This document shows, one piece after another, positions 31,671 through 48,290 of a stretch of DNA of 64,000 nt. The translations under genes were made by a program, and so were the position numbers. The notes under the pieces were generated by a model. It made no database searches. It had not been told where the DNA came from and was given only the letters and a program-made list of their open reading frames with translations. Within the stretch, counting starts at the first letter, position 1; the number at the start of each line of letters is the position of its first letter. This stretch comes from Anaerococcus tetradius ATCC 35098 (GTDB lineage Bacteria; Bacillota; Clostridia; Tissierellales; Peptoniphilaceae), in the NCBI RefSeq assembly GCF_000159095.1, contig NZ_GG666296.1, positions 165,422 to 229,421 of the forward strand, given 5' to 3'.

Positions 31671-31762
31671 TAAATAAATCAAATTTTTTCTATAAAAAAA
31701 TAGAGATAAGTTGCTTTATTAAGGGTATAAGAGGAATGAATTTAAAAGTTATGGAGGATATT

Positions 31763-33343
31763 ATGGAACTAAAATTAGAAAATTTAGCTCAGATTCTAAA
31801 AGTAGTGGACAAGGGTCCTAACTATGATGTAAAAAAACTAAGAGAAGATTCAATCAAGGATCCAAAATGGCTTGCCTTTGGTTCAGGTAATATCTTCAGA
31901 GGTTTTATAGCAAGAGTTAACCAAGATGCTATTAATGCTGGCAAGGAGGATAGGGGAATTTCTGTTGTTGAATCATTCGATGAAGAGATTATCGAAAAAA
32001 TTTACAAGCCTTATGACAACTTAGCTTTATCAGTTACCCTTCATAAGGACGGAAATTTTGATACTACTCTTATTGCTAACTTGGTTGAGTCTTTAACACT
32101 CAAAGATATGGACAGAATTAAAGAGATTGCCCTTAATCCAAATCTTGAACTTATGAGTTTTACTATTACTGAAAAGGGCTACAACCTTTATGCTTCAGAT
32201 GGAAGCCTAATGGGAGTTGTTGCAGATGATCTTAAAAATGGACCAGCTAAGGCAAAGCACCTTATGAGCATTGTAACCGCTTTACTAAATTTGAGATTTA
32301 AGGAAAATGCAAAGCCACTTACACTTTTATCAATGGATAATGCAAGCCATAATGGTGATCTTGTTAAAAATTCAGTTATGCTAATTGCAAAGACCTGGCT
32401 AGAAAATGGTTTTGTGGATGAAGCTTTCATAAAATATATCGAAGAGAAGGTTGCCTTCCCACTTTCTATGATTGATAAGATTACACCAAGGCCTGCAAGT
32501 GAGGTTCAAAAACACGTTGAAGAACTTGGCTTTAGTGCTATGGAGCCAGTAGTAACTAGCAAGGGTTCATATGTTGCAGGTTTTGTAAATTCAGAAGAGG
32601 CTGAATATCTTGTAATTGAAGACACTTTCCCAAATGGCAGACCAGCTTTTGAAGAAGGTGGAGTATATATGGCAGATAGGGATACTGTAAATAAGGTAGA
32701 GACTATGAAGGTTACAACTTGTCTAAACCCACTTCACACAGTTCTTGCAACTTATGGTTGCATTCTAGGCCATACATCAATTGCAGAAGAGATGGAAGAT
32801 GTTGAGCTTGTAAAACTCATAAAGAAAATCGGTTATGATGAGGGACTAAAGGTTGTTGTAAATCCGGGAATTATCAATCCAAAAGACTTCATAGATGAAG
32901 TAATTAATGTAAGGTTTCCAAATAAATTCATGCCAGATACCCCACAAAGAATCGCAACAGATACATCACAAAAAATATCAGTAAGATTTGGTCAAACTAT
33001 AAAAGGTTATGTTAATGATGAAAGTCTTGATGTTAAGGATTTGAAATTTATCCCACTAGCCCTAGCTGGATGGCTTAGATATCTTTTGGGAGTTAATGAT
33101 GAAGGAAAAGCCTTTGAACTTTCAAATGATCCAATGATGGATTATCTAAAAGAAAGCCTTAAAGACATTGAACTTGGCAAGTTCAAAGTTACTGATGGCT
33201 TAAAAGAATTATTGACCAATGAAAAGATTTTCGGCGTAAACCTAAAAGAAGTAGGACTTGATGAATTAGTTATTAAATACTTTGAAGAATTGTCAGCTGG
33301 CCCAGGTAGTGTAAGAGCTACACTAAAGAAATACTTAGGATAA
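31763..33343 (+). CDS. uxuB: D-mannonate (fructuronate) oxidoreductase UxuB
   Basis: UxuB interconverts D-fructuronate and D-mannonate with NAD in the Ashwell pathway. The product belongs to the long-chain mannitol dehydrogenase family. The Rossmann region is GSGNIFRGFIARVNQDA near the N-terminus, and the catalytic pattern K316-x5-N322-x2-H325 sits in KVTTCLNPLHT. I chose the ATG at 31763 because GGAGGA lies just before it. Upstream ATGs at 31736 and 31751 lack well-spaced sites and would only add residues unlike the family. It is the first gene of the uxuB-uxuA-uxaC-kdgA-kdgK operon under the two operators. Confidence 0.93.
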   Translation: MELKLENLAQILKVVDKGPNYDVKKLREDSIKDPKWLAFGSGNIFRGFIARVNQDAINAGKEDRGISVVESFDEEIIEKIYKPYDNLALSVTLHKDGNFDTTLIANLVESLTLKDMDRIKEIALNPNLELMSFTITEKGYNLYASDGSLMGVVADDLKNGPAKAKHLMSIVTALLNLRFKENAKPLTLLSMDNASHNGDLVKNSVMLIAKTWLENGFVDEAFIKYIEEKVAFPLSMIDKITPRPASEVQKHVEELGFSAMEPVVTSKGSYVAGFVNSEEAEYLVIEDTFPNGRPAFEEGGVYMADRDTVNKVETMKVTTCLNPLHTVLATYGCILGHTSIAEEMEDVELVKLIKKIGYDEGLKVVVNPGIINPKDFIDEVINVRFPNKFMPDTPQRIATDTSQKISVRFGQTIKGYVNDESLDVKDLKFIPLALAGWLRYLLGVNDEGKAFELSNDPMMDYLKESLKDIELGKFKVTDGLKELLTNEKIFGVNLKEVGLDELVIKYFEELSAGPGSVRATLKKYLG

Positions 33344-33360: not shown

Positions 33361-34431
33361 ATGAAAATGACCTTTAGACATTATGGTAATAACGACCCAA
33401 TATCGCTAGAATATATTGCTCAAATTCCTGGAGTTACAGGAGTTATGGTTATGATGAATGAGTGGGAAGCAGGAGAAGTGTGGGAGAAGGATGTCTTTCA
33501 AGCTTATGTTGATAAGTGCCATGCTGTAGGACTTGAGTGTGAGATTATTGAATCTATAAATGTTCACGAAGATATAAAGATGGGACTTCCTACAAGAGAT
33601 AAATATATCGAAAATTACAAACAATCCCTAAGAAATGTCGCAGCTTGTGGAGTAAAGACTGTAATATATAACTTCATGCCAGTTTTCGACTGGGTTAAGA
33701 CAGACCTATACAAACAGCTTCCAGATGGCTCAAATACCCTTGCCTTTGATCAAGCTAAGGTAGAAGGCCTTAGCCCAAGAGATATGGTAAATGAAATCCT
33801 TGAAGGAGCTGGAAACTTTGAACTTCCAGGTTGGGAGCCAGAAAGACTATCTCAACTAGAAGAAGTTCTCGAAAAATACAAGGATATAGATGAAGATAAG
33901 CTTAGAGAAAACTACAAATACTTCCTCGAAGGCATCATTCCAACATGTGAAGAAGTAGGAATCAAGATGGCAGTTCACCCAGATGATCCAGCTTGGCCAA
34001 TCTTTGATATTCCAAGAATAACTTCAACCCCAGAAGACCTAGAAAAAATTGTAAATCTAGTAGACTCTCCATCAAATACCCTATGTATTTGTACAGGTTC
34101 TCTAGGATCAAGAGTAGAAAATAACGTAGCAGATATAATTGCTGACTTTACAAAAAGAGGCAAGGTTGGAGCAATCCACGCAAGAAATATCAAGTTTACT
34201 GGCGAAAAACAATTCTATGAATCAGCTCACTTATCAAAATGCGGTTCACTAGATATGTATGCTATAATGAAAGCCCTTTATGATAACGGATTTGACGGTT
34301 ATCTAAGACCAGACCATGGAAGAATGATTTGGGGTGAAGAGGGAAGAGCAGGCTACGGTCTTTACGATAGAGCCCTTGGAGTAGCTTACCTAAACGGACT
34401 TTGGGAAGCAATCGACAAGGCTAATAAATAG
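33361..34431 (+). CDS. uxuA: Mannonate dehydratase UxuA
   Basis: UxuA dehydrates D-mannonate to 2-keto-3-deoxygluconate (KDG). The 356-residue TIM-barrel protein has the family start MTFRHYGNNDPISLEYIAQI and MAVHPDDPAWPIFDIPRI, with metal-ligand histidine. CTGSLGSR and the late YLRPDHGRMIWGE are also typical. It follows uxuB after 17 bp behind AGGAG. The next gene, uxaC, starts after 133 bp that contain an mRNA hairpin but no clear terminator. Confidence 0.96.
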   Translation: MKMTFRHYGNNDPISLEYIAQIPGVTGVMVMMNEWEAGEVWEKDVFQAYVDKCHAVGLECEIIESINVHEDIKMGLPTRDKYIENYKQSLRNVAACGVKTVIYNFMPVFDWVKTDLYKQLPDGSNTLAFDQAKVEGLSPRDMVNEILEGAGNFELPGWEPERLSQLEEVLEKYKDIDEDKLRENYKYFLEGIIPTCEEVGIKMAVHPDDPAWPIFDIPRITSTPEDLEKIVNLVDSPSNTLCICTGSLGSRVENNVADIIADFTKRGKVGAIHARNIKFTGEKQFYESAHLSKCGSLDMYAIMKALYDNGFDGYLRPDHGRMIWGEEGRAGYGLYDRALGVAYLNGLWEAIDKANK

Positions 34432-34564: not shown

Positions 34565-35971
34565 ATGAAATTCATGACAGAAGATTTTATGCTTCATAAT
34601 GATTTTGGCAAGAAACTCTACCATAATTATGCAGCAAAAATGCCAATCTTTGACTTTCACTGCCACCTTGAAGCCAAGGAAATCTATGAGAATAAGAACA
34701 TCCCATCAATAACTGAAGCTTGGCTTGGAGGAGACCATTACAAGTGGAGGATGATGAGAGCTTGTGGAGTGGATGAGAAATATATTACGGGTGACGCAAC
34801 AGACTTTGAGAAGTTTGAAAAATACGCAGAAGTAATGCCAAACCTAATCGGTAACCCAATCTATCATTGGACTCACCTAGAACTTAAAAACTTCTTTGGC
34901 ATAGAAGAATGTCTAAATAAGGAAAATGCTAGAGAAATTTTTGATAAGTGTAACGAAATTTTGGCAAAGGATGAATTTAGACCAAGGGGTCTTATAGAAA
35001 TGAGCAAGGTAGCTGCAGTGTGTACAACAAATGATCCTATTGATGATTTGAAATACCATGAGCTTATTGCCAAAGATAACTTTAAGGTAAAAGTTCTTCC
35101 AGCCTTTAGGCCTGACAATGCCCTCTATATCGAAAAAGAAAGCTATGCTTCATACATTGAATCCCTAGCCAAGGCTAGTGGTCTTTCAATCAAAAACTTC
35201 GAAGATGTAAAAAAAGCCCTCAAGGCTAGAATTGATTTCTTCGATAAACATGGTGCAAAGGCAAGTGATCAAGCCTTCAAATATATTCCTTACAGAAGAT
35301 TGGATGAAGAGAGTCTAAATAAAATTGTCGAAAAGAAACTTGCTGGCAATCCTATAAGTTTAGAAGAAGAGGAAGCCTACAAGACAGAGCTTATAATCTT
35401 CTTAGCTAGCCAATACAAGAAACTAGACTGGGCTATGGAAATCCACGTTGGAGTTATAAGAAACAATTCTAAAGTCCTATTCGAAAAGCTTGGAGCTGAT
35501 GTTGGAGGAGATAGCCAAAACGACTTGAATTTTGCAGAAAATCTTGCAAATCTTCTCTCAGACTTTGAAGAAAATGACGGACTTCCAAGAACTGTAATAT
35601 TCCCACTAAATCCAAAAGACCATTTTCCAATTGCAACCATAGGCGGCTCCTTCAATAGGGCAAATCCTGATAATATGCAAAATATTCAACTCGGAACAGC
35701 TTGGTGGCACCTTGATCACAAGGATGGAATGATTGAGCAATTAAAGGTATTCTCAAGTGTTGGAGTTCTTTCAAAGTTCATAGGCATGCTTACAGATTCA
35801 AGAAGCTTCCTATCATATCCGAGACACGAATATTTCAGAAGAATCCTCTGCAATTTCATAGGAGATTTAGTAGAAAAGGGAGAATACCCAGCTGATGAGA
35901 AATTCCTCGGCAAGGTAATCGAAGATATTTGTTTTAACAACGCAACAAAATACATTAAGATAGATTTATAA
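34565..35971 (+). CDS. uxaC: Glucuronate (uronate) isomerase UxaC
   Basis: UxaC isomerises D-glucuronate to D-fructuronate and D-galacturonate to D-tagaturonate. The 468-residue protein is an amidohydrolase-fold enzyme. The metal motif HCHLEAKEIYENK is near residue 33, and KAAVCTTNDPIDDLKYH-like and GGDSQNDLNFAENL segments follow. A late SRSFLSYPRHEYFRR is a strong family marker. It belongs to the hexuronate operon between uxuA and the aldolase. As no tagaturonate branch genes (uxaA, uxaB) are seen, glucuronate is the likely main substrate. Confidence 0.96.
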   Translation: MKFMTEDFMLHNDFGKKLYHNYAAKMPIFDFHCHLEAKEIYENKNIPSITEAWLGGDHYKWRMMRACGVDEKYITGDATDFEKFEKYAEVMPNLIGNPIYHWTHLELKNFFGIEECLNKENAREIFDKCNEILAKDEFRPRGLIEMSKVAAVCTTNDPIDDLKYHELIAKDNFKVKVLPAFRPDNALYIEKESYASYIESLAKASGLSIKNFEDVKKALKARIDFFDKHGAKASDQAFKYIPYRRLDEESLNKIVEKKLAGNPISLEEEEAYKTELIIFLASQYKKLDWAMEIHVGVIRNNSKVLFEKLGADVGGDSQNDLNFAENLANLLSDFEENDGLPRTVIFPLNPKDHFPIATIGGSFNRANPDNMQNIQLGTAWWHLDHKDGMIEQLKVFSSVGVLSKFIGMLTDSRSFLSYPRHEYFRRILCNFIGDLVEKGEYPADEKFLGKVIEDICFNNATKYIKIDL

Positions 35972-35988: not shown

Positions 35989-36615
35989 ATGAGCAAAGTA
36001 AAAACAATAAGCAAGGTATTAGAACTAGGAATCGTACCAGTAGTAAGAGCAGAATCAGCAGACCAAGCAATAGAATTCTGCAAGGGCCTAATTGATGGAG
36101 GAATCAACACCCTAGAAGTAACCTTCACCATACCAAACGCAATAGAAGTATTCCAAAGAATCCAAAAGGAACTGCCAGCTGACACCCTACTTGGAGCAGG
36201 AACAGTTCTAGACCCAACAACAGCAAGACTTGCAATAATGAATGGAGCTAAATTCGTAGTAAGCCCATCATTTGACAAAGAAGTAGCAAAAATGTGTAAC
36301 ATCTACAACATCCCTTATATGCCAGGCTGTGTAACACCAGCAGAAATGCTAGAAGCCTACAAATACGGAGTAGACATCATAAAACTCTTCCCAGGTTCTC
36401 TAACAGGCCCATCATATGTAAAAGCAATCCATGGACCATACCCACACTTCCAAATCATGCCAACAGGTGGCGTTAGCCTAGATAACCTTGAAGAATGGTT
36501 CAAGGCAGGAGTAGTAGCAGTAGGAGCAGGCTCAAACCTAGTAAAAGGAAGTAGAGAAGAAATCACCAAAAAAGCAAAAGAATATTTAGCAAAAATTGCG
36601 GAGGTAAGAAAATAA
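35989..36615 (+). CDS. kdgA: KDPG/KHG aldolase (Eda-type)
   Basis: This aldolase splits 2-keto-3-deoxy-6-phosphogluconate into pyruvate and glyceraldehyde 3-phosphate. The 208-residue class I aldolase has the Schiff-base lysine K132 in DIIKLFPGS, a catalytic glutamate in TLEVTFTIPNA, and the phosphate-binding PTGGVSLDNLEEWF segment. It lies 17 bp after uxaC, and its last base is the first base of kdgK. It completes the hexuronate route. Confidence 0.94.
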   Translation: MSKVKTISKVLELGIVPVVRAESADQAIEFCKGLIDGGINTLEVTFTIPNAIEVFQRIQKELPADTLLGAGTVLDPTTARLAIMNGAKFVVSPSFDKEVAKMCNIYNIPYMPGCVTPAEMLEAYKYGVDIIKLFPGSLTGPSYVKAIHGPYPHFQIMPTGGVSLDNLEEWFKAGVVAVGAGSNLVKGSREEITKKAKEYLAKIAEVRK

Positions 36616-37640
36616 TGAGTAAAAAAGTTGTAACCCTAGGCGAAATCATGTTAAGACTATCCACACCGGGATATGAAAGATTTGTTCAAGCAGAAAGCTT
36701 CGATGCAATCTATGGAGGAGGAGAAGCAAATGTAGCAGTATCTCTTGCAAACTATGGTTTCGATGCCTACTATGTAACAAAACTTCCAAAACACGAAATA
36801 GGCCAAGCAGCAGTAAACGCCCTAAGAAGATACGGAGTAAACACAAACTACATCGTACGTGGAGGGGAAAGAGTAGGAATCTATTACTCAGAAACAGGAG
36901 CATCAGCAAGACCATCCAAGGTAATCTATGACAGAAGTAACTCCGCCATAGCAGAAGCTAAAGCAGACGAATTTGACTTTGACGAAATCTTCAAGGGCGC
37001 AGCGTGGTTTCACACATCAGGAATAACACCTGCCATATCAAAAGCTGGAGCAGAAATTACTAAGAGAGCTATGCAAGCAGCTAAAAAAGCTGGAGCAAAA
37101 ATCTCAATCGACCTAAACTACAGGGCAAAACTTTGGAGTCCAGAAGAAGCTCAAGCAGTAATGAAAGATTTGATGCAATACGTTGACGTATGTATAGGAA
37201 ACGAAGAAGATGCATCTCTTTGCCTAGGCTTTACACCAAAAGGACTAGACGTAACAAGTGGTAAACTTGACGTAGAAGGCTACCATGAAATCTTCAAACA
37301 AATGAAGGAAGAATTCGGTTTTGATATGATAGCATCAAGCCTAAGAGAATCATACTCAGCATCTGATAATGGTTGGTCAGCCCTAATCTATGATGGCAAA
37401 GACTTCCACAAAGCACCAAAATACGACCTAAGAATCGTAGACAGAGTAGGTGGAGGAGATAGCTTTGCAGCAGGCCTAATTACAGGTCTACTTGATGGCA
37501 AAAGCCCAGCAGATGCCCTAGACTTTGGTGTTGCAGCAAGTGCCCTAAAACATACAATCAAGGGAGACTTCAACCACATGTCAAGAGATGAAGTAGAAAA
37601 CCTAGTTGGAGGAGATGCTTCAGGTAGGGTTCAAAGATAG
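36615..37640 (+). CDS. kdgK: 2-keto-3-deoxygluconate kinase (PfkB family)
   Basis: KdgK phosphorylates KDG at C6, feeding the aldolase encoded just upstream. The 341-residue ribokinase-family protein opens with VTLGEIMLRLSTPG. It has the GGGEANVAVSLANYG sugar-binding region and the catalytic base D282 in VGGGDSFAAGL. It is the last gene of the hexuronate operon, before a strong terminator. Confidence 0.95.
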   Translation: MSKKVVTLGEIMLRLSTPGYERFVQAESFDAIYGGGEANVAVSLANYGFDAYYVTKLPKHEIGQAAVNALRRYGVNTNYIVRGGERVGIYYSETGASARPSKVIYDRSNSAIAEAKADEFDFDEIFKGAAWFHTSGITPAISKAGAEITKRAMQAAKKAGAKISIDLNYRAKLWSPEEAQAVMKDLMQYVDVCIGNEEDASLCLGFTPKGLDVTSGKLDVEGYHEIFKQMKEEFGFDMIASSLRESYSASDNGWSALIYDGKDFHKAPKYDLRIVDRVGGGDSFAAGLITGLLDGKSPADALDFGVAASALKHTIKGDFNHMSRDEVENLVGGDASGRVQR

Positions 37641-37649
37641 TAAATGCAA

Positions 37650-37693
37650 AATCTTTAGGGAGGGTTCGCTCCCTTCCTGAAGATTATTTTTTA
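37650..37693 (+). terminator. Terminator of the hexuronate operon
   Basis: AATCTT...AGG..GGG with TCCC..CCT..AAGATT around TTCG, followed by ATTTTTTAA. It separates kdgK from the oxidoreductase cluster; no consensus promoter was found between 37694 and 37745. Confidence 0.85.
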
Positions 37694-37745
37694 ACAAATT
37701 GGAAAACGATTAGCGATAAGCGATGAATAAATTTAGGAGGCTAAA

Positions 37746-38915
37746 GTGAGCGATAGAAAATTAAAATTAGGAATTATTGGTTATGGAACAGAAGGCTCCA
37801 TGTATGGAAAATTCATATCTGAAGAGATGGTTGAAAATGTAGAAGTTACTGCAGTTTGCGACATAGATTCCCAAAAATTAGACCTAGCAAAAAAAGTTTT
37901 TCCAAAGGCTAAGCTTTATGAATCTTACAAAGAAATGGTAGATAGCGGAGAAGTTGAAGGAATCGTAACCTGCGTACCTCACTACCTCCACCCAGAAATG
38001 GCAATCTATGGCCTAACTCATGGGGTAAATGTACTTAACGAAAAGCCAGCTGGAGTTTATACCAAACAAGTAAAAGAGCTAAACGAAGTTGCTAAAAAAT
38101 CTGATAAGGCTTATGCCCTATTCTTTAATCAAAGAACTAATCCCCTATATAGAAAACTTAAAAAAATCCTAGACTCAGGCGAGCTTGGCACAATCAGAAG
38201 AACCAACTGGATTATCACAACCTGGTGGAGACCAGATGCCTATTACAGACAATCTGACTGGAGAGCTACTTGGGGAGGAGAAGGTGGAGGAGTTTTAGTA
38301 AACCAAGCCCCTCATCAACTTGACCTTATCCAATGGATGACAGGTGCTCCAGATAGGGTTTACTCAAGCGTACAATATGGTTACCAAAGAGATATTGTTG
38401 TAGATGATCAAGTTCATTTCCTTATGGAATATGATGATGGAAGGACTGGAGTATTTGTAACTGGCACTAACGAGATAATCGGAACTGATAGGCTAGAAAT
38501 CGTATGTGATGGTGGAAAGATTGTAGTTGATGATTCTAAGAAGGCAACAATATATAGACTTAAAGAAACAGAAAATGACCTCAATGCTAGGATGACGATT
38601 GACGATGTAAAGATGCTTTTTGCAGGACAAATGAAATTTGATGACCTCTTTGAAACAGAAGTTATTGAAGAAAACTCTGTTTGGGGTGGCCAACACTGTG
38701 AAGTTTTAAGAAACTTTGCTGCCCACATACTCGATGGTGAAGAGCTTCTTGCCGACGGAGCTGAAGGAATCAATGGAGTAAGACTTGCAAATGCAGTTCA
38801 CCTTTCAAGCTGGTTAGGCAAGCCTGTTTCTGTAAAAGACTTTGACGATGACCTTTATCTAAAACTTCTAAATGAAAAAATCAAAGAAGAAGGCAAATTC
38901 GAAGAAAGAAAGTAG
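37746..38915 (+). CDS. Gfo/Idh/MocA-family oxidoreductase 1
   Basis: A 389-residue NAD(P)-dependent sugar or inositol oxidoreductase. The Rossmann motif GIIGYGTEG opens the protein, the conserved EKP is residues 99-101, and the C-terminal domain has GGGVLVNQAPHQLDLIQW with the catalytic-type histidine. It starts with GTG behind AGGAGG. It is the first of four closely spaced genes (three oxidoreductases and one epimerase-like protein) ahead of a GPH symporter. Family members oxidise glucose derivatives, glycosides, inositols or uronides. The substrate here is unknown; proximity to the hexuronate operon suggests glucuronides or uronate derivatives. Confidence 0.85.
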   Translation: MSDRKLKLGIIGYGTEGSMYGKFISEEMVENVEVTAVCDIDSQKLDLAKKVFPKAKLYESYKEMVDSGEVEGIVTCVPHYLHPEMAIYGLTHGVNVLNEKPAGVYTKQVKELNEVAKKSDKAYALFFNQRTNPLYRKLKKILDSGELGTIRRTNWIITTWWRPDAYYRQSDWRATWGGEGGGVLVNQAPHQLDLIQWMTGAPDRVYSSVQYGYQRDIVVDDQVHFLMEYDDGRTGVFVTGTNEIIGTDRLEIVCDGGKIVVDDSKKATIYRLKETENDLNARMTIDDVKMLFAGQMKFDDLFETEVIEENSVWGGQHCEVLRNFAAHILDGEELLADGAEGINGVRLANAVHLSSWLGKPVSVKDFDDDLYLKLLNEKIKEEGKFEERK

Positions 38916-38920
38916 GGTTT

Positions 38921-39946
38921 ATGTTAAAAGTAGGAGTTATAGGACTCGGAACAGTTTCCCCTATCCACCTCTTTTCCATAAATAATTCGCCTTACGCAGA
39001 CCTAGTTGCTGTGTGTGATATAGATAGTAATAGGGCTAAAGATAAATGTGAGATGACCCATTGTGAAAGTAATACTTATTATACTAACTATAAAGAAATG
39101 ATAGATAAGGAAGACCTAGATCTTGTTCATATCTGCCTGCCTCATCATCTTCACACAGAAGTGTCAAAATACGCCTTAGCAAAGGGGCTTCACGTTTTTT
39201 GCGAAAAGCCAGTTGATGTAAGTTATGAAAAAACCAAAGAACTCTATGATTTCTACCAGACCTACAAGGATAGGCAAAAGCTTGGTATCTGTTTTCAAAA
39301 TAGATACAACAAGACAGTTCAAAAACTCAAAGAACTATTGGAAGATAATAAGGAAGAAGTCTTTGGAGTAAAGGGCTTAGTAACTTGGTACAGGGGTATG
39401 GATTATTATAAACAGGCAGCTTGGCGAGGAAAGATAAAAGAAGCGGGAGCTGGAGTTATAATCAACCAAGCCATCCACACCCTAGACCTTATGGGCTTTG
39501 TTACAGGAAAAGACTGGAAAAGCCTTACAGCAACTATGACCAAGCTTATGAATAAGGAAATTGAGGTAGAAGATACAGCAAGCGCCTTCATCGAATATGA
39601 AGATGGGGTAAATGGATTCTTTATGGCGACTAATGCTTATTCGATAACTGACTCAATAGAATTACAAGTAATAAGTAAGAGCGAAAAATACACAATAAAA
39701 GACAATAGGCTTTACAACAAAGCCCTAGAATGCTTGGCAGAAGACGATAAGAGCGATGCTACTAAGGATTATTATGGAGCAGGTCACGAGAAACTAATCA
39801 ATAAATTTTATAAAGCTATAATCGATGACACAGATGATTATTGCAATTTAGCTTCCGCTATGGAAACAATGGAAATAATCCAGGCTATAATTAATTCATC
39901 TAAGGAAAATATAGAAATCAAAAAAGAGGAGATTATTAATGACTAA
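38921..39946 (+). CDS. Gfo/Idh/MocA-family oxidoreductase 2
   Basis: A 341-residue paralogue of its neighbour. The Rossmann start GVIGLGTVSPIHLFSI, the EKP motif at residues 95-97 and the GAGVIINQAIHTLDLMGF segment are intact, so it should be catalytic. It begins 5 bp after oxidoreductase 1 and overlaps the epimerase-like gene by 8 bp. Two distinct members side by side often catalyse an oxidation and a later reduction on the same sugar; that reading is inference. Confidence 0.85.
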   Translation: MLKVGVIGLGTVSPIHLFSINNSPYADLVAVCDIDSNRAKDKCEMTHCESNTYYTNYKEMIDKEDLDLVHICLPHHLHTEVSKYALAKGLHVFCEKPVDVSYEKTKELYDFYQTYKDRQKLGICFQNRYNKTVQKLKELLEDNKEEVFGVKGLVTWYRGMDYYKQAAWRGKIKEAGAGVIINQAIHTLDLMGFVTGKDWKSLTATMTKLMNKEIEVEDTASAFIEYEDGVNGFFMATNAYSITDSIELQVISKSEKYTIKDNRLYNKALECLAEDDKSDATKDYYGAGHEKLINKFYKAIIDDTDDYCNLASAMETMEIIQAIINSSKENIEIKKEEIIND

Positions 39947-40793
39947 AATAGGAGTACAAGCTTCCACAGTAGTGGATTCTTTCAAAGAACTTGGGCCATA
40001 TGAAACCTTCAAACGACTTTCAGATATAGGTTACAAGTCAGTAGAAGTATCCCAAGTAGAAACGACTAAGGAAAACATAGACCAAATCATAAAAGCTTGC
40101 AAGGACTTTGATATGGAAGTAGCTGCGATGTCAGCAGCCCTTGAGCCAATGTTTCCTGGTCAAGAAAGCCTTGAAACTGACTATGATAAGATTGTAGGAG
40201 ACTGTAAGGCAGTTGACACAGACCTTTTAAGAATCGGCATACTTCCATTTGATAAGATGGCAAATCTTGATAAGGCTATAGAATTTGCAAAAAAGGCAAA
40301 TGAATATGCCCTCAAATTAAGAAAAGATGGTATAAAACTCTACTACCACAACCACCACATAGAATTTGTAAAATATGATGGCAAATATCTCCTCGATATA
40401 ATAGCAGAAAACGCCCCAGAACTCGGCTTCGAGCTTGACGTTCACTGGATACAAAAGGGTGGAGAAAATCCTGTAAATATCCTAAAAAAATATGCAGGCA
40501 AAGTAGAATTAGTCCACCTAAAAGACTACGAAGTTTTGCCACTAACTATGGATGATCTAAAGCTTATGCAAACTGATCAAAAAGCCTTTAGACAAGCTTT
40601 CGATAACAGGGCAAGATTTGCACCATTGGGACAAGGCTCCCTTCCACTAAAGGAATGTGCAGACCAAGCTATAAAGTCAGGCTGTAGGTATCTATTAGTT
40701 GAACAAGACATGTCTTATGGCAGAGATCCCTTCAATGAACTTAAAATTTCTTATGATTGGCTAGTCGCTAATGGCTATGGAGATTTATTCTAA
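39939..40793 (+). CDS. Sugar phosphate isomerase/epimerase-like TIM-barrel protein
   Basis: A 284-residue member of the AP endonuclease 2/xylose isomerase-like superfamily. Metal-binding positions appear in YYHNHHIEF, FELDVHWIQKGGENP, VHLKD and LLVEQD. Relatives include IolE/IolI, 3-keto-sugar enzymes and the catalytic subunit of C-glycoside deglycosidases. It overlaps the gene before it by 8 bp and shares one base with the gene after it, so it is part of a tightly coupled set with the three oxidoreductases. Epimerisation or beta-elimination of an oxidised sugar is a reasonable hypothesis. The true reaction is not determined. Confidence 0.8.
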   Translation: MTKIGVQASTVVDSFKELGPYETFKRLSDIGYKSVEVSQVETTKENIDQIIKACKDFDMEVAAMSAALEPMFPGQESLETDYDKIVGDCKAVDTDLLRIGILPFDKMANLDKAIEFAKKANEYALKLRKDGIKLYYHNHHIEFVKYDGKYLLDIIAENAPELGFELDVHWIQKGGENPVNILKKYAGKVELVHLKDYEVLPLTMDDLKLMQTDQKAFRQAFDNRARFAPLGQGSLPLKECADQAIKSGCRYLLVEQDMSYGRDPFNELKISYDWLVANGYGDLF

Positions 40794-41875
40794 TGACAAT
40801 TAACAAAAAAGACGGGATGAACTATGCTCCACAAGGCAAGGCCAACAAGGTCGTAGGTCCTGGTGAGTTTAAAGTAGGAGTTGGAGCCCTTGATCATGGC
40901 CATATCTATGGTATGTGCAATGGACTAAAGGAGGCTGGGGCAGAAATTGTTTATGTCTATGATAAAGACCCTAAAAAGATAAAAGAATTTCAAGAGAAAT
41001 TTCCAGAAGCCAAGGAAGTAGCATCTGTCGATGAGATATTAAAGGATCCTGAGATAAAAATGCTTGCGGCAGCAGCAATTCCAAATCTAAGATCAGCCCT
41101 AGGCAATAAGGCCATGAGGGCTGGCAAGGACTACTTTACCGATAAGACCGGATTTACCACTTACGACCAATTAGAAGAAACAAAAAAGGTCGTAAAAGAA
41201 ACTGGCAGAAGGTACTTCGTATATTTTTCCGAAAGAGTCCATGTTGAAGGAGCAATCTTTGCAGGAAAACTCATAGAAGAAGGAAGAATAGGAAGGGTTA
41301 TCCAAGTAACAGGCTTTGGCCCTCACAGTCTAAATAAGGAAAGTCGCCCAGACTGGTTTTTCAAAAAAGACCAATATGGTGGAATCCTTACGGATATAGG
41401 AAGCCATCAAATCGAACAATTCCTCTATTATACCGGAAATAAGGATGCCAAAGTCCTTCACAGCAAGGTGGCTAACTACGACAATCCTGACACTCCAGAA
41501 CTAGAAGATTATGGTGATGCGACCATCCTTGGGGAAAATGGAGCGACATTTTTCTACAAGGTTCATTGGTTCTCACCAAAGGGTCTTTCAAGTTGGGGAG
41601 ATGGAAGGACTTTTATAACAGGAACTAAGGGATATATAGAAGTCAGAAAATATACAAATGTTGCCACAGAAGCGACAGGGGACCATGTATTTTTGGTAGA
41701 TGAAAATGGAGAAGAACACTTCGAAGTAAATGGCAAAGTAGGCTTCCCATTTTTTGGACAGATGATACTCGATTGTATAAATGGCACAGAAAATGCCATG
41801 ACTCAAGAGCATATCTTCAAGGCCCAAGAGCTTTGCTTAAAATGCCAAGAAGAAGCTATAGTAATAACAAATTAA
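40793..41875 (+). CDS. Gfo/Idh/MocA-family oxidoreductase 3 (atypical, EKP replaced)
   Basis: A 360-residue member of the same superfamily but more divergent. It has an N-terminal extension of about 25 residues before the Rossmann start (FKVGVGALDHGHIYGM). The usual EKP is replaced by DKT in DYFTDKTGFTTYDQL. The C-terminal motif is GGILTDIGSHQIEQFLYYTG. The lost lysine-proline pair suggests a changed active site or a different cofactor role. It is translationally coupled to the epimerase-like gene and followed 15 bp later by the GPH symporter. Confidence 0.8.
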   Translation: MTINKKDGMNYAPQGKANKVVGPGEFKVGVGALDHGHIYGMCNGLKEAGAEIVYVYDKDPKKIKEFQEKFPEAKEVASVDEILKDPEIKMLAAAAIPNLRSALGNKAMRAGKDYFTDKTGFTTYDQLEETKKVVKETGRRYFVYFSERVHVEGAIFAGKLIEEGRIGRVIQVTGFGPHSLNKESRPDWFFKKDQYGGILTDIGSHQIEQFLYYTGNKDAKVLHSKVANYDNPDTPELEDYGDATILGENGATFFYKVHWFSPKGLSSWGDGRTFITGTKGYIEVRKYTNVATEATGDHVFLVDENGEEHFEVNGKVGFPFFGQMILDCINGTENAMTQEHIFKAQELCLKCQEEAIVITN

Positions 41876-41890
41876 AAGCAGGAGAAAAAA

Positions 41891-43285
41891 ATGCAAAAAA
41901 ACGTAAAGCCTTTTGGCATTAGAGATAAGATAGGTTATGCAGCAGGTGATGTTGCTAATAACTTTACTTTTACCCTCGTAAGTAGTTTCCTTATGCTATT
42001 CTACACTAACGTATGGGGAATAGATCCAAAAATGGTTGGTGGATTGTTTTTTATATCAAGAATAATTGACGCCTTCACCGATGTAGGCATGGGAACAATC
42101 GTAGATAAGTTTCCAGGAAATAAGGATGGTAAATTTAGACCATTTATCAAATGGGGTGCTATACCAGTAGCAATAGCAGGTTTCCTATTATTCCAATCAG
42201 GACTAAAAGATTTACCTATGGGAACAAAAATCATCATAATGTATGCAACCTACATACTATGGGGATCATTATGTTACACCTTTATCAACATTCCTTATGG
42301 ATCAATGGCATCAGCAATCACACCAGAAGCTGACCAAAGAACAGAACTTTCAACCTTTAGAACCCTAGGAGCAACTGTTGCAGGTCTTGTAATAGGTTTT
42401 GTTACTCCTTATCTAATTTATCAAAAAGTTGCAGGTCAACCAGATGTTCTTCTCGAAGGAAGATTTCCTCTTGTAGCAGGAATTTACGGCATACTCGCAA
42501 TTGTATCTTACTTTATCTGCTACAGCTTCTGTACAGAAAGGGTTGACATCGAAAGAGAATCAGGTGGAGAAAAAGAGAACATCCTCCAAGGAATTGGCGA
42601 TGTAATCACCAAGAGATCTCTACTATCAATCATAGTAATATCAGTTTGTTTGCTACTAGCAATGCTTTTAGTTGGATCAATGAATATTTATGTTTATTCA
42701 ACCTACTTCCAAAACACAACAGGTATGGCTCTAGCAGGTCTTTGTGGTACAGTGCCTATGCTATTTACAGCTCCAATGGCAATGAAGCTTGGACAAAAAA
42801 TTGGTAAGAAAGAAGCAACAACTATAGGATTATTAGGTTCCGCAGCTACTTACTTTATACTATTCATCTTAAAACTAGAAAATATGTATATGTTCTTAGC
42901 TGGAACAGTAATTGCTTACATTTTCCTAGGAATCTTCAACACCCTAACCTGGGCTATGATTACAGACGTAATAGATGATCTAGAAATTAAAAATGGCATA
43001 AGAGATGACGGAAAAGTTTACGCTATCTATTCATTTGCAAGAAAACTAGGTCAAGCTTTCGCTGGAGGACTTGGTGGATTTGCAGTAGCAGCAGTAGGCT
43101 ATGTTGCAGGAGCAGCAACCCAAACTCATGAAGTTGCTGTTGGAATATACAATGTAGCAACCCTAATACCAGCTGTAGCCTTGGGCCTTGGTGGCTTGGT
43201 AGTATTGTTAATATATCCACTTGATAGAAAGACTGTTGAGAAAAACAATAAATACCTAGAAGATAAGAGACTTGAAATAGAATAA
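41891..43285 (+). CDS. GPH-family glycoside/glucuronide symporter
   Basis: A 464-residue transporter with twelve predicted membrane helices. The family start FGIRDKIGYAAGDVANNFTFTLVSSFLMLFYTNV, the RPFIKWGAIPVAIAGFLLF loop and the NIPYGSMASAITPEADQRTELSTFR segment are classic GPH markers. This family includes melibiose, xyloside and glucuronide (UidB) carriers. Because it follows three oxidoreductases and precedes an intracellular GH3 enzyme, it likely imports the intact glycoside or glucuronide that they act on. A terminator follows at 43292. Confidence 0.9.
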   Translation: MQKNVKPFGIRDKIGYAAGDVANNFTFTLVSSFLMLFYTNVWGIDPKMVGGLFFISRIIDAFTDVGMGTIVDKFPGNKDGKFRPFIKWGAIPVAIAGFLLFQSGLKDLPMGTKIIIMYATYILWGSLCYTFINIPYGSMASAITPEADQRTELSTFRTLGATVAGLVIGFVTPYLIYQKVAGQPDVLLEGRFPLVAGIYGILAIVSYFICYSFCTERVDIERESGGEKENILQGIGDVITKRSLLSIIVISVCLLLAMLLVGSMNIYVYSTYFQNTTGMALAGLCGTVPMLFTAPMAMKLGQKIGKKEATTIGLLGSAATYFILFILKLENMYMFLAGTVIAYIFLGIFNTLTWAMITDVIDDLEIKNGIRDDGKVYAIYSFARKLGQAFAGGLGGFAVAAVGYVAGAATQTHEVAVGIYNVATLIPAVALGLGGLVVLLIYPLDRKTVEKNNKYLEDKRLEIE

Positions 43286-43291
43286 TAATCT

Positions 43292-43324
43292 AACCTCCAA
43301 TTTGGAAATGATTGGAGGTTTTTT
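43292..43324 (+). terminator. Terminator after the GPH symporter
   Basis: AACCTCCAAT (43292-43301) pairs with ATTGGAGGTT (43311-43320), followed by TTTT. A small ACCC/GGGT hairpin comes next; no clear separate promoter was seen before the GH3 gene. Confidence 0.85.
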
Positions 43325-43364
43325 AACCCTTTTTAGGGTAAAAATATAAAACTAGGAGGATTAA

Positions 43365-45482
43365 ATGACAGAGCAATTAAAACTAGAAGTAAGAAACAAA
43401 AAACTAATAGAAAATGAAGGCTTTAAGTTTAAAGACCTAAATGGAAATGGCTCTCTTGACCCTTATGAGGACTGGCGTCTACCATCAAGCGTTCGTGCGA
43501 AGGACCTTGCCTATAGGATGACTATAGAAGAGCTTGCTGGAAATATGATGATTAAGTCCCAAAGAATGGGTCTTAGCCAAGAAGATAAGGCGAAAACAAG
43601 CCATGATGGTCTTCTTGATGAAGAAGTTTATGAAGATACAAATATTTTTATAGGTCAAATAAACCACGGTTCAACAGGTCATATTCTTGATAAAAACCTT
43701 CGCCACTTTATTCTAAGAGATAACTTCTCAGAAGATGAAATTGCTAAATGGGCAAATGCTATGAATGAAGTTGCCGAAAGCTCTAGACTGGGCATACCTG
43801 TAATAATCGCTTCAAACTCAAGAAATGAAAATGCAGAAAGAACCTTCGGTATGAACGATGCAGTAGGAGTATTTACAACCTATCCATCAACCCTAGGTCT
43901 TGCCGCAGCCTATCTTGGAGATAGGGCAAGAAACTTCCACCCATATGGGGATTATGAATACTCAATCTTCAAGGAATTTGGACAAATCGCAAGAGATGAG
44001 TGGAAATATTCAGGACTTAGAAAAGGCTATATGTACATGATCGACACAGCCACAGACCCTAGATGGCAAAGATTTTATGGAACCCTGGGAGAAGATGTAG
44101 AATTAATCACCAAGGCTTGTGAAGACTTAATAGAAGCCTTCCAAGGAGAAGAATTAAATAGCGAATCAGTAGCCCTTACCATGAAACACTTTCCAGGTGG
44201 TGGAGCTAGGGAAAACGGCTTTGACCCTCACTACAAGGAAGGAAAATTCAATGTCTATGCTACAGCTGGTTCATTAGAAAAATACCATCTTCCACCATTT
44301 AAGAGAGCTGCAGAGAAAAAAGTTTCATCAATCATGCCTTACTACTCAATACCTTCCCATGACAAATCAGCCGTTCAAAACTATAAGGGAGAAAAAATTC
44401 CTTTCGAGCCAGTTGGCTTTGCCTTTAACCAATACTTTATCCAAAATATCCTAAGAGGGGATATGGGCTTTAAGGGCTACATCAACTCAGACTCAGGCAT
44501 CCTCGATAACATGGCTTGGGGCATGATGCACCTAGAAAAGCAAGATCGTGCAGCCTGTGCCATAAACAACGGAGTTGACCTAATCTCAGATACTAACGAA
44601 GTTGAATGGATAATTAAGGCCTATGAAGAAGGTAAAATTAGTCGTGAGAGATTAATCGAAGCAAATATTAGACTACTTACAGAAATGTTTGATCTAGGCT
44701 TATTCGATGACAAAACCTATGTAGACCCACAAAGGGCAAAAGACTTCGTAGCTAATGAAGAAAACAAGAAAAAAGCTTATTCAGCCCACCTTAGATCAGT
44801 AGTTCTCCTAAAAAATAAAGAAAATTGCCTACCTATGGCTGATAAGGCAAAAGTTTATGTTGGCTATCTCCACAAAGAAGCCGATAAGGCTGAAACCTTT
44901 AGAAAAGAAGCAATAGAAGAACTAAAAAATAGGGATGATATTAAAATAGTAGGAGACATAAATGACGCTGATTATATTTATGTACAAATCACACCAAAAT
45001 CAGGTAACTATTTTACAGCAACACCTGGTTTACTAGAACTTGACCTTTGTGAAAACAAAACTAACAAGGCTATGGATGGAAGTGAATATACTGAAACAAC
45101 AGTAGCTAATATTGACAAACTTGACGAATATAGGAAAATTGCCGACAAAAATGGAGCAAAACTAATAGTTACAGTAAACTCAAACATGCCTTGGCTATTA
45201 GAAAAAGCAGAAGTGAAGGCTGACGCTCTACTAGCCCACTTTGAGACTTTTACATCCGCCCAAATGGATGTCCTAACAGGAAAATTCGCCCCAACAGGTA
45301 AACTTCCATTCACCTTCCCTAAGTCAGAAGAAGCTATAGCTGTGGATGAAGAAGGAATCTGCGTAAGCCCTAACGATGTTCCAGGCTATGACAAAGAAAA
45401 ATATATGCCAGAAGGCATGACCTATGCCTACAAGGATGAATGTGGCAATGAATATAAACTAGGCTTTGGCTTAACTTACTAA
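43365..45482 (+). CDS. Cytoplasmic GH3-family glycoside hydrolase with EF-hand-like loop
   Basis: A 705-residue enzyme of the beta-glucosidase family 3. The N-terminal barrel carries K274-H275 (MKHFPGGGAR) and the nucleophile D376 in INSDSGIL, where most relatives have SDW. A C-terminal alpha/beta domain follows (about residues 470-640). There is no signal peptide, so it is intracellular. Residues 24-35 (DLNGNGSLDPYE) match a 12-residue EF-hand calcium loop exactly, which is odd for a cytoplasmic enzyme. The SDSG variant and location beside uronate genes suggest a specificity other than plain cellobiose, perhaps beta-glucuronides or beta-glycosides with a modified sugar. Confidence 0.88.
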   Translation: MTEQLKLEVRNKKLIENEGFKFKDLNGNGSLDPYEDWRLPSSVRAKDLAYRMTIEELAGNMMIKSQRMGLSQEDKAKTSHDGLLDEEVYEDTNIFIGQINHGSTGHILDKNLRHFILRDNFSEDEIAKWANAMNEVAESSRLGIPVIIASNSRNENAERTFGMNDAVGVFTTYPSTLGLAAAYLGDRARNFHPYGDYEYSIFKEFGQIARDEWKYSGLRKGYMYMIDTATDPRWQRFYGTLGEDVELITKACEDLIEAFQGEELNSESVALTMKHFPGGGARENGFDPHYKEGKFNVYATAGSLEKYHLPPFKRAAEKKVSSIMPYYSIPSHDKSAVQNYKGEKIPFEPVGFAFNQYFIQNILRGDMGFKGYINSDSGILDNMAWGMMHLEKQDRAACAINNGVDLISDTNEVEWIIKAYEEGKISRERLIEANIRLLTEMFDLGLFDDKTYVDPQRAKDFVANEENKKKAYSAHLRSVVLLKNKENCLPMADKAKVYVGYLHKEADKAETFRKEAIEELKNRDDIKIVGDINDADYIYVQITPKSGNYFTATPGLLELDLCENKTNKAMDGSEYTETTVANIDKLDEYRKIADKNGAKLIVTVNSNMPWLLEKAEVKADALLAHFETFTSAQMDVLTGKFAPTGKLPFTFPKSEEAIAVDEEGICVSPNDVPGYDKEKYMPEGMTYAYKDECGNEYKLGFGLTY

Positions 45483-45615: not shown

Positions 45616-46554
45616 ATGTTTAAAGCTCTAATAAAAAAAATTCCTGCAGCTAATATGATGGTTCCCTTGATACTTGCAGGTCTTATCAATACTCTTTTGC
45701 CTAGCCTTTTGCACTTTGGTGTTTTTACTGAGGCTCTTTTTACGAGTGCCGGGATGAAGACTCTTATGGGAATAAATTTGATTGCTGCGGGTAGTCAGAT
45801 CCATTTTTCTAATATTTTTGAAATATTTAAGAGATTTTCTGTTATAGCTATAGCTCGTCTAGGTGCAGGACTACTTATTATTTTTCTTGTAGCTTCCTTT
45901 TTTGGCAGAGATGGAATATTTGGTATATCCATACTTGCCTTGGTTTGCGCTAGTCTTAACCATAATAATTCTGTTTTTATCACCCTAAATATCGACTACG
46001 GAGATGATTTGGATCAGGGTCTTGCTGGTATTACTAGTTTGATTACAGGTCCCATGCTTGCTATGCTAGTTTTAGGTATGTCTGGGATTGCGAACATTCC
46101 TCTAAGGGCTATGGCAGATTCTCTAATGCCTGTAATAATTGGGATACTTATAGGCAATATTGATAAGGATTTTGCTAAGATTTTGAAATTATCACAGAAG
46201 GTCATAATTCCCTTTTTGGGTTTTACCATGGGTTCTTCAATTAATTTTAAAGATATATTTAGGGCTGGATTTTCAGGACTAATACTTGCCTTCATAGTGA
46301 TTTTTATTATTGGTTCTATTACCCTTCTTGCAGATATTTATATTAACAAAAGACCAGGCCATGCCGCTTGGGCTATATCTACAACTGGAGCTAACGCTGT
46401 TGCTGTGCCTCAAATAATTGCAGAAATTGATCCGTCTTATCTTCCCCTTGTTGGTCTTGCTACTGCCCAAGTAGCTGCTTCAGCGGTCATTACTATTATT
46501 CTTACACCTTTGATTACCGCCCTTTGGGCTAAGTCAAAAAACAATAGGGCCTAG
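45616..46554 (+). CDS. kdgT: 2-keto-3-deoxygluconate permease KdgT
   Basis: A 312-residue KDG:H+ symporter-type protein. The N-terminus KKIPAANMMVPLILAGLINTLLPSLL, CASLNHNNSVFITLNIDYGD and the ISTTGANAVAVPQIIAEIDPSY region are strong KdgT markers, with about ten hydrophobic helices. It lets KDG from the environment enter the pathway at the kdgK step. It lies on its own after the GH3 terminator, which fits a regulon spread over several transcripts. The following T-box promoter belongs to brnQ. Confidence 0.93.
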   Translation: MFKALIKKIPAANMMVPLILAGLINTLLPSLLHFGVFTEALFTSAGMKTLMGINLIAAGSQIHFSNIFEIFKRFSVIAIARLGAGLLIIFLVASFFGRDGIFGISILALVCASLNHNNSVFITLNIDYGDDLDQGLAGITSLITGPMLAMLVLGMSGIANIPLRAMADSLMPVIIGILIGNIDKDFAKILKLSQKVIIPFLGFTMGSSINFKDIFRAGFSGLILAFIVIFIIGSITLLADIYINKRPGHAAWAISTTGANAVAVPQIIAEIDPSYLPLVGLATAQVAASAVITIILTPLITALWAKSKNNRA

Positions 46555-46637: not shown

Positions 46638-46664
46638 ATAGCTAACAATAGTTATTAAAAATTA

Positions 46665-46908
46665 CGAAAAAAAGAGTAGGCTTATGGACAAGCACAGAGA
46701 GTTGGTCTTAGGTGGAATCCAATCTTAGAAGTAAGTTCGAAAATCATTTTTCTTTTGCACGTCTGAAGAAAGTAAGATGTGTCGCCATGGTTGGCGTTAT
46801 CAAAACCCAGCATTGTTAGATGCTTGAGAGCTTATATTTATATAAGAATAAAGGTGGTAACGCGGAATATTTCGTCCTTTGTCTAATGTTTAGACAAGGG
46901 ACTTTTTT
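46665..46908 (+). ncRNA. T-box riboswitch with terminator (probable isoleucine specifier)
   Basis: The T-box sequence AGGTGGTAACGCGG is at 46852-46865. The competing terminator GTCC..TTGTCTA / TAGACAA..GGAC with TTTTTT is at 46874-46908. Stem I begins near 46665 (GAAAAA with TTTTTC near 46749), with an AGTA-type loop E segment on its 5' side. The opposite strand reads GTTCGAAAATCA, giving ATC (isoleucine) as the most likely specifier codon. It senses uncharged tRNA and lets transcription pass into brnQ. The specifier register is the least certain part. Confidence 0.93.
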
Positions 46909-46946
46909 GATGGATAAATATTGTTAATAAATTTTTGGAGGAAATA

Positions 46947-48290
46947 ATGAAAAAATTATCTAGAAGTCAATTTTTACAAGTTAGTATAATGTTATTCGGT
47001 CTGTTCTTTGGAGCAGGAAATTTAATTTTCCCACCTCTTTTAGGAAATATGGCAGGAAAAGCAACCTTTGTTGCTCTATTGGCCTTTTGCGTTACTGCTG
47101 TAGTATTTCCAGTTTTGGGATCAATAGTAGTAGGAAAAACTAATGGCTTATCAAATCTAGCCAACAGGGTGAACCCTGCCTTTGCTTTAGTTTTCACAAC
47201 AGCAATATATTTATCAATAGGACCTGGACTTGGCATACCAAGAGCAGGATCAGTTCCTTTCGAGATGGCTATAGCACCATATATACCAGCATCTTTCAAC
47301 ATGAGCCTAGCTAGGCTTGTTTATACTTTTGTATTTTTTGCCTTAGCCCTTGCTATATGCTTAAAGCCTAGCAAGCTTGTCGAAAGAGTAGGAAAATTTC
47401 TTACACCAGCCCTCTTATTATTGATAGCCTTCATGTTCTTTAAGGTTATAAGTATGGATAAAAGCGTAGCAGCTCCTACAGGAGATTATTTAAAGGCTCC
47501 TCTTACAAAAGGATTCTTGGCAGGATATGAAACAATGGATGCAGTTGCAGCCCTTAACTTTGGTTTTGTTATAGCACAAGCTATAAGAAGATTTGGGGTT
47601 AATGATGAGAAAGAAGTTACAAGATATGAGATAAAAGCAGGTCTTCTTGCAGGATTTGTCCTCTTTGTAGTATATGCTATGCTTGCAAGTATAGGTATGG
47701 TAGGAAGTGCTAAGTTCGTTGGTCTTGAAAATGGTGCCCAAGTTCTTGCTGAATCTATAAAACTTGCCCTTGGTAATTTTGGTTTAGTTTTATTAGCCTT
47801 TATCTTTACCCTAGCTTGCCTAACAACTTGCGTTGGACTTATAAGCAGTGGTGGAGAATATTTTGAGAAATTATTCAACAATAGACTATCCTACAAGTCT
47901 TGGGTATGTATATGGACTCTATTCTCATTTATAATGGCAAACTTTGGTCTAAATAAGCTCTTGGAAATATCAGTACCACTCCTACAAATAATCTATCCAG
48001 TAGCCCTTGTACTAATAGTAATGGGTATAAGCCAAAGCTTCCTAAACTTCAGCAAACTCTCTTACATTTTTGCTGCAGCAGTTTCAGTTGGCCTACCTTT
48101 AATAGAAGTATTGGATAAAACCTTTAAACTACACCTTGGCTTTGTAACAAGTCTAGTAAAGGCCCTACCAATGTATAAAGAAGGTCTATCTTGGCTATTA
48201 CCAACCCTAGTAGTAGTAGTGCTAACAAGCCTTGCTGTAAAGGCTCTAGGCAATCTAAGCTCCTTAGAAAAAGCAAGACAAGAATATTAA
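46947..48290 (+). CDS. brnQ: Branched-chain amino acid transporter BrnQ
   Basis: BrnQ is a sodium-coupled importer of leucine, isoleucine and valine with twelve helices. The N-terminus VSIMLFGLFFGAGNLIFPPLLGNMAG and IGPGLGIPRAGSVPFEMAIAP are diagnostic. I chose the ATG at 46947 behind GGAGG; the longer frame from TTG 46935 lacks a site. Expression is controlled by the T-box directly upstream, linking uptake to lack of charged tRNA, probably tRNA-Ile. A terminator follows. Confidence 0.95.
   Translation: MKKLSRSQFLQVSIMLFGLFFGAGNLIFPPLLGNMAGKATFVALLAFCVTAVVFPVLGSIVVGKTNGLSNLANRVNPAFALVFTTAIYLSIGPGLGIPRAGSVPFEMAIAPYIPASFNMSLARLVYTFVFFALALAICLKPSKLVERVGKFLTPALLLLIAFMFFKVISMDKSVAAPTGDYLKAPLTKGFLAGYETMDAVAALNFGFVIAQAIRRFGVNDEKEVTRYEIKAGLLAGFVLFVVYAMLASIGMVGSAKFVGLENGAQVLAESIKLALGNFGLVLLAFIFTLACLTTCVGLISSGGEYFEKLFNNRLSYKSWVCIWTLFSFIMANFGLNKLLEISVPLLQIIYPVALVLIVMGISQSFLNFSKLSYIFAAAVSVGLPLIEVLDKTFKLHLGFVTSLVKALPMYKEGLSWLLPTLVVVVLTSLAVKALGNLSSLEKARQEY

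Follow-up and report, generated by a model that had tools for sequence, protein, structure and literature searches.

A gene block of Anaerococcus tetradius predicted to cleave O-glucuronides by oxidation and elimination, and a Gfo/Idh/MocA-fold protein not found beside the second barrel of related loci

A 64,000-nucleotide stretch of the draft genome of Anaerococcus tetradius ATCC 35098 (here called the window; it lies inside a 504-kb contig of the 2.1-Mb assembly) carries, at positions 37746 to 45482, six genes that we propose as a route for the breakdown of O-glucuronides. All are on the + strand. The first four encode OR1, a predicted NAD-dependent glucuronide 3-dehydrogenase (37746..38915), OR2, a predicted 3-keto-glucuronate reductase (38921..39946), BAR, a xylose-isomerase-like barrel predicted to be a metal-dependent 3-keto-glucuronide beta-eliminase (39939..40793), and OR3, a protein of the Gfo/Idh/MocA fold (40793..41875). 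They are followed by a GPH-family symporter, the predicted glucuronide importer (41891..43285), and by a GH3 enzyme, predicted to be a cytoplasmic beta-glucuronidase (43365..45482). The coordinates and the gaps of 5, -8 and -1 bp between the first four genes, reported in a first-pass annotation made from the sequence alone, proved exact. Its family assignments were likewise confirmed: Pfam GFO_IDH_MocA was matched three times and AP_endonuc_2 once, the symporter matched MFS_2 and the NCBIfam gph model (321 bits for a cut-off of 231), and the last gene contained the GH3 N and C domains behind a hydrophilic N-terminus which, judged by eye, is not a signal peptide. The core of the block is very probably of a known kind, an oxidation-elimination cleavage, here of O-glucuronides. 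That OR1 and BAR perform such a cleavage appears probable to us from homology, fold and context, an estimate which does not extend to the step proposed below for OR3.

The best PDB match of OR1 was 8TDI, the glucuronide-3-dehydrogenase of P2B11, aligned over nearly the full length of the protein (residues 5–388, E 3.4e-132, 444 bits), whereas the runner-up reached 97 bits. OR1 starts at a GTG codon directly preceded by AGGAGG, and carries the GxGxxG motif together with K100, N186 and H190. Among its homologues the motif GxGxx[GAS] was present in 97 of 98 sequences and the alternative [LI]xHxHI, discussed below, in none. The match to 8TDI, the NAD motif and the active-site residues place OR1 with the NAD-dependent glycoside 3-dehydrogenases, and strongly suggest that its reaction is the NAD+-dependent oxidation of the glucuronyl hydroxyl at C3. 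We take 8TDI to belong to an alternative pathway that breaks down glycans through 3-keto intermediates (Nasseri et al. 2024, Nature). With 8TDI the system has a known core, which the first-pass annotation had not anticipated.

The evidence on BAR came from residues and from fold. In the phmmer alignment with AtOGE (8BVK), H137, D167, H193 and E255 of BAR fell on H132, D163, H189 and E233, and H139 fell on H134; the AtOGE study describes the first four as metal residues and H134 as catalytic (PMC10628242). All five were present in each of the 77 BAR homologues. The AlphaFold model of BAR (pLDDT 94) was closest to the 3-keto-beta-glucopyranoside 1,2-lyase AL1 (Z 27.1, root-mean-square deviation 2.6, 244 aligned residues), with the lyase BT1 at 25.9; structures of both lyases were released on the same day as 8TDI. 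Art22 (Z 24.2), AtOGE (24.0 over 210 residues) and AsbF (23.7) came further down, then IolE (22.8), the CGEs (about 21) and YcjR (20.4). Scores with the BAR profile went in the same direction, two AtOGE-like proteins giving 103 and 89 bits compared with 32 bits for the IolE of the same genome. By residues and fold alike, BAR belongs with the metal-dependent beta-eliminase barrels. It is strongly suggested that BAR, with a metal bound through H137, D167, H193 and E255 and with H139 as the catalytic residue, would abstract H2 and eliminate the aglycone.

By its motifs and its model, OR2 is a canonical member of the Gfo/Idh/MocA family. It carries GxGxxS and K96, N182 and H186; GxGxx[GAS] was found in 39 of 40 homologues, EKP with the N/H pair in all 40, and [LI]xHxHI in two. 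Its model (pLDDT 90.5) was nearest to WlbA with UDP-GlcNAcA (3Q2K, Z 39.9, root-mean-square deviation 2.0, 324 aligned residues), followed by a Kribbella oxidoreductase (38.3) and by levoglucosan dehydrogenase (38.2). The levoglucosan pathway (LgdA, LgdB1, LgdB2 and LgdC) proceeds by oxidation, elimination, hydration and reduction, and its reductase LgdC is a Gfo/Idh/MocA enzyme (PMC7676230). The present block would resemble it in the four steps and differs in that its fourth gene encodes a Gfo/Idh/MocA-fold protein and its predicted sugar is a uronide. By analogy with LgdC, OR2 would turn 3-keto-glucuronate into glucuronate and return NAD+.

In the pathway that we propose, the GPH symporter would import the intact O-glucuronide into the cytoplasm, OR1 and BAR would act on it in turn as described above, OR3 may perform or assist the hydration, and OR2 would close the cycle. 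The glucuronate would then be taken over by UxaC, UxuB, UxuA, KdgK and KdgA, the enzymes of the Ashwell pathway, which leads from glucuronate to pyruvate and glyceraldehyde 3-phosphate. The SN243-type GH3 enzyme would hydrolyse ordinary beta-glucuronides in parallel. As far as homology and context go, the course outlined in the first-pass annotation is supported: import by the symporter, oxidation at C3, an elimination, and a uronate that is handed on to uxaC. The support comes from the match of OR1 to 8TDI, the AtOGE-like BAR and the linkage with uxaC across genera. For the symporter the second-best model was the NCBIfam glucuronide transporter, at 263 bits under a cut-off of 528.

OR1 is a patchy trait. 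At E 1e-60 or better it was found in six of 61 genomes, that of A. tetradius included, all six within the genus, and in five of 199 genomes of an overlapping sample taken at the level of the order. The genus thus has five further carriers, which all show the order uxaC-kdgA-kdgK-OR1-OR2-BAR-OR3-GPH, GPH being either a single gene or a pair. GH3 came next in three of them (L044, L046 and L047 in our numbering of loci); the contig of L045 ended before that point, and the gene was absent from the stretch taken of L048. The four-gene order OR1-OR2-BAR-OR3 was unchanged in Halolactibacillus (two loci), Oceanobacillus, Evansella, Carnobacterium, Lysinibacillus and Ferdinandcohnia. This recurrence, in five further members of the genus and, for the four-gene block, in other genera, indicates that the arrangement is not due to chance.

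At a larger scale, we compared 103 OR1 loci, made up of 80 named loci and 23 others. Some entries are duplicates: L045 and L064 represent one contig, and L042 and L104 both come from Niallia taxi. The named loci are the best 80 of at least 539 matches, which favours close kin, and some are cut by contig ends. They bear 42 genus labels, of which one reads "unassigned"; 40 loci belong to Bacillota, 39 to Actinomycetota, and one has no phylum. Within 7 kb of the 103 OR1 genes we counted BAR 87 times, an OR2-like gene 65 times (both being sums from one table), BAR2, an additional AP_endonuc_2 barrel present in other versions of the cluster (e.g. L129:4241-5128), 51 times, uxaC 50 times, OR3 18 times and uxuA 12 times. 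The gene uxaC was near OR1 in 18 of the 42 genus labels. Among 391 genomes sampled from the class, 114 had an OR1 homologue at E 1e-60 or better and 174 had UxaC, which was present in 88 of the 114 and in 86 of the 277 others (odds ratio 7.5, p 3.5e-17, uncorrected for kinship). Only four genomes of the class, A. tetradius included, had an OR1 above 50% identity, so that the homologues need not all act on glucuronides and many may take other glycosides.

The third Gfo/Idh/MocA protein, OR3, is the unusual member of the block. A GxGxx[G/A/S] dinucleotide motif is defining for the dehydrogenases of this family, and a Lys with an Asp/His pair forms their active site. In the 56 OR3 homologues (36 distinct sequences) GxGxx[GAS] was never found and [LI]xHxHI always. 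OR3 itself reads ALDHGHI, and two remoter alphaproteobacterial homologues read LNHNHI and IDHRHI. The active-site residues K118, D201 and H205 were kept in all 56. Measured against a canonical dehydrogenase, OR3 lacks the dinucleotide motif and retains the active-site Lys and Asp/His. Its PDB matches include 2P2S (E 3.6e-104) and 3U3X (E 3.8e-90), two putative oxidoreductases of the OR3 subfamily, the first of which also reads LAHNHI; a literature search found no function for either. The claim of three Gfo/Idh/MocA oxidoreductases is right as to family, and for OR3 needs the amendment that it is probably not an ordinary dehydrogenase.

OR3 and BAR2 were never found together in the 103 loci. 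The same was true of the 86 loci that extend 5 kb or more to either side (OR3 in 15, BAR2 in 40). On the OR1 tree, a single FastTree tree with many weak forks, OR3 required at least eight state changes. A paired-contrast test yielded four independent pairs on starred branches, with which a sign test is unable to reach 0.05; given this lack of power, the two traits were simulated on the tree, and only the runs near the observed trait counts were kept. Under independent evolution, zero overlap had a P of 0.0036 when both traits were simulated, 0.0021 for OR3 only and 0.0009 for BAR2 only. The exclusion extended to whole genomes: none of the 13 named genomes bearing OR3 had a BAR2 match at E below 1e-30, one of them having a remote match at 29%, and the same query detected a match in four of four BAR2 carriers. 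Of three genomes with neither gene at the locus, two had distant BAR2 matches (35–37%) elsewhere. This mutual exclusion at loci and in genomes leads us to propose a common role for OR3 and BAR2, and the published four-step pathways leave hydration as the job to be filled. Neither BAR2 nor a 3keto-disac_hyd domain (PF06439) was found in the draft genome of A. tetradius, which makes OR3 the remaining candidate for hydration at the locus. It may occupy the hydration slot where BAR2 sits in other versions, or help in this step. A broader proposal, that an OR3-type protein has taken the place of an unrelated TIM-barrel enzyme of this pathway on repeated occasions and that the subfamily reaches the rhizobia, seems to us rather unlikely.

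Alternatively, OR3 could have an unusual Rossmann loop and still act as an ordinary NAD-dependent dehydrogenase or reductase of 3-keto sugars, in which case the lack of loci shared with BAR2 would mark inherited operon lineages. We give this explanation, which concerns OR3 only and is compatible with cleavage by OR1 and BAR, a little less than an even chance. The invariant K118, D201 and H205 speak for it, as do the small number of independent pairs and the many weak forks of the tree. Against it stand the complete replacement of the dinucleotide motif by [LI]xHxHI (also seen in the two OR2 homologues), the state changes and the low probability of zero overlap. In addition, 30 of 36 OR3-like genes (L045 and L064 left out) had a Gfo/Idh/MocA gene on their own strand no more than 1.5 kb away, with the canonical motif in 29 of these 30, which would make a further redox enzyme superfluous in part. 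Elsewhere, OR3-type genes also occurred outside close OR1 loci (L163–L179 and L186–L188), in genomes of the class, Paenibacillus and alphaproteobacteria, and 14 of these 20 had a Gfo/Idh/MocA neighbour, as a rule directly adjacent. In four genomes of the class (L172, L174, L175 and L178) OR3 kin stood by uxuA or uxuB, a position which fits uronate chemistry and gives no reaction.

Several observations weigh against the cleavage of glucuronides by OR1 and BAR in the form proposed, or against its later steps. Counting structure matches within one Z unit as ties, two Parabacteroides proteins of uncharacterised function, 3OBE (Z 26.9) and 3L23 (25.9), are as near to BAR in fold as the lyases. OR1 and BAR occurred without OR2, BAR2 or OR3 within 7 kb in 22 of the 103 loci, some of which had OR2 or BAR2 slightly further out, and nine of the 80 named loci had none of the three in the whole stretch; BAR may hydrate too in these cases, or the genes may lie elsewhere. 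At the 100 top-ranking OR1 sites of the class, uxaC lay within 10 kb in at least 12 cases, a low count which suggests that the tight link with uxaC holds mainly in closer kin. Homology gave no support to BAR2 as a hydratase. No close solved relative of BAR2 was found, and kinship with AtHYD found no support, as BAR2 showed no clear relation to the larger isomerase-like proteins of AtOGE-type plasmid operons, which served as AtHYD-like stand-ins by their size and operon context only. The A. tetradius genome also possesses a GH2 beta-glucuronidase (contig C100, 368252-369214; PRK10150 model, 720 bits, cut-off 544). Finally, a terminator-like hairpin of 15 pairs with a T tail on the + strand of the kdgK-OR1 gap (37650..37685) speaks against one uniform transcript.

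The GH3 enzyme had as its best PDB match SN243 (7QE1, E 8.4e-108), for which the source gives a kcat/KM of 1.7e6 per M per s on pNP-beta-glucuronide, a plate value (PMC9730296). The two proteins share KHFPGGGxxExGxDPHY and NSD[ST]G. Two other SN243 entries have N or A where Asp376 aligns, which suggests that this Asp is the nucleophile. SN243 is longer (759 against 705 amino acids), and the C-terminal part aligned poorly. Being closest to SN243 and having the Asp in NSD[ST]G, the enzyme is predicted to be a cytoplasmic beta-glucuronidase of the SN243 type, which would give the locus two candidate cleavage routes, one oxidative and one hydrolytic. In actinobacteria, Arthrobacter loci (e.g. L085:16377-18656) had a gluconokinase-GH3 fusion near OR1; its GH3 domain was nearest to the beta-glucoside phosphorylase 5VQD, and it was rejected as an SN243-type enzyme since the fusion is unlike SN243. 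As for the GH2 family, the five remaining genomes of the genus with OR1, one of them 86% complete, gave no match. Among the 31 genomes of the genus searched, a GH2_C match and the OR1 block occurred together only in A. tetradius; the other GH2 genes are untyped.

A rival explanation is an epimerisation scheme, in which OR1 would oxidise a rare uronide at C3, BAR would epimerise a neighbouring carbon, OR2 or OR3 would reduce the product and GH3 would hydrolyse the resulting glucuronide. YcjS and YcjR reportedly work in a comparable manner on gulosides. The scheme would find a use for the extra oxidoreductases, the adjoining GH3 could complete the job, and YcjR is on the fold list of BAR. We regard it as improbable: BAR has the His ligand and the catalytic His of AtOGE and is nearer in fold to the 1,2-lyases and to AtOGE than to YcjR, and only two of the 80 named OR1 loci have a GH3 that is at least 35% identical to that of the window. 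Halalkalibacter (L124) carries OR1 and BAR as well as GH3.

A C-glycoside deglycosidase (CGD) similar to DgpA/B/C and active on C-glucosyl or C-glucuronyl compounds is very unlikely. OR1 and OR2 count DgpA among their relatives and the CGEs have the same barrel fold as BAR, but with a Z of about 21 compared with 27 for the best match, and their first metal ligand is reported to be a Glu (PMC10628242) in place of His137. A second, small CGD subunit (that of PUE is 18.3 kDa) would need a gene of its own, and positions 37746-45482 contained no further + strand open reading frame of at least 100 amino acids, the rest of the genome not having been searched for one. On these three grounds the CGD was rejected as the principal explanation. 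Of the substrates suggested in the first-pass annotation, O-glucuronides are favoured, and beta-glucosides and C-glycosides less likely. Inositol catabolism, named there as the outcome that would overturn the proposal, was excluded and is scarcely credible: IolG was indeed the top NCBIfam match of OR1, OR2 and OR3, and IolE that of BAR, yet with 96, 116 and 56 bits for a cut-off of 355, and 38 bits for 290, while iolB, iolC, iolD, iolE and iolG were all over their cut-offs on contig C98 of the same genome. That operon (C98:206000-225000) reads iolB, methylmalonate-semialdehyde dehydrogenase, iolC, iolD, iolE, a sodium symporter and iolG.

Among described systems, that of the P2B11 glucuronide-3-dehydrogenase comes closest to the proposed cleavage by OR1 and BAR. 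A Subdoligranulum locus (L043), whose OR1 is 51% identical to that of the window, reads OR1-OR2-BAR-uxaC with BAR2 and without OR3. In the operon of Agrobacterium that encodes AtOGE, the eliminase has the same metal and catalytic residues as BAR; a flavoenzyme, GlycDH, carries out the oxidation there, AtHYD is a sugar-isomerase-like putative hydratase, and the substrates tested were glucosides (PMC10628242). What seems new here is that the block occurs in a version with OR3, that this version is conserved across genera, that OR3 and BAR2 exclude each other and that OR3 lacks the dinucleotide motif. The exchange between OR3 and BAR2 offers a testable handle on hydration, the least understood step. 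The human body gets rid of drugs, hormones and plant compounds as glucuronides, whose release by bacteria is usually judged by counts of hydrolytic beta-glucuronidase genes. This locus and its kin represent a predicted glucuronide-release route that such counts would miss.

The hairpin upstream of OR1 is a candidate attenuator which may divide the gene set. The same hairpin was found in the relatives L044, L045 and L046; L047 and L048 had different hairpins only, that of L047 without a clear T tail. Terminator-like sites were not in excess across the region (13 compared with 11.5 +/- 3.1 in shuffles), so the case depends on the strength and recurrence of this one site. Between the hairpin and OR1 (37690-37730), the sequence TTGGAAAACGATTAGCG resembles, by eye, a LacI-type or catabolite operator.

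The glucuronate-to-pyruvate gene set described upstream is real and also lies on the + strand. It consists of a UxuB-like protein of the mannitol dehydrogenase family (31736..33343; Pfam Mannitol_dh and Mannitol_dh_C), uxuA for mannonate dehydratase (33361..34431; Pfam UxuA E 2.4e-146, NCBIfam 459 bits for a cut-off of 191), uxaC for glucuronate isomerase (34565..35971; NCBIfam 601 bits for 387), a kdgA-type KDPG/KHG aldolase (35989..36615; NCBIfam 260 bits for 238) and a kdgK-type sugar kinase (36615..37640; Pfam PfkB E 2.5e-39). The UxuB-like protein, a fructuronate reductase by context, was below every listed reductase cut-off (NCBIfam fructuronate reductase, 124 bits for 603). Downstream, the gene annotated as kdgT encodes a KdgT-family permease (45616..46554, + strand; Pfam KdgT E 3.6e-89), which scored 165 bits with the NCBIfam kdgT equivalog, under the cut-off of 454. 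It is followed by a T-box leader (46654-46882; Rfam RF00230, 119 bits, gathering score 93) situated directly upstream of an open reading frame for a membrane transporter (46935-48290) which looks BrnQ-like by eye.

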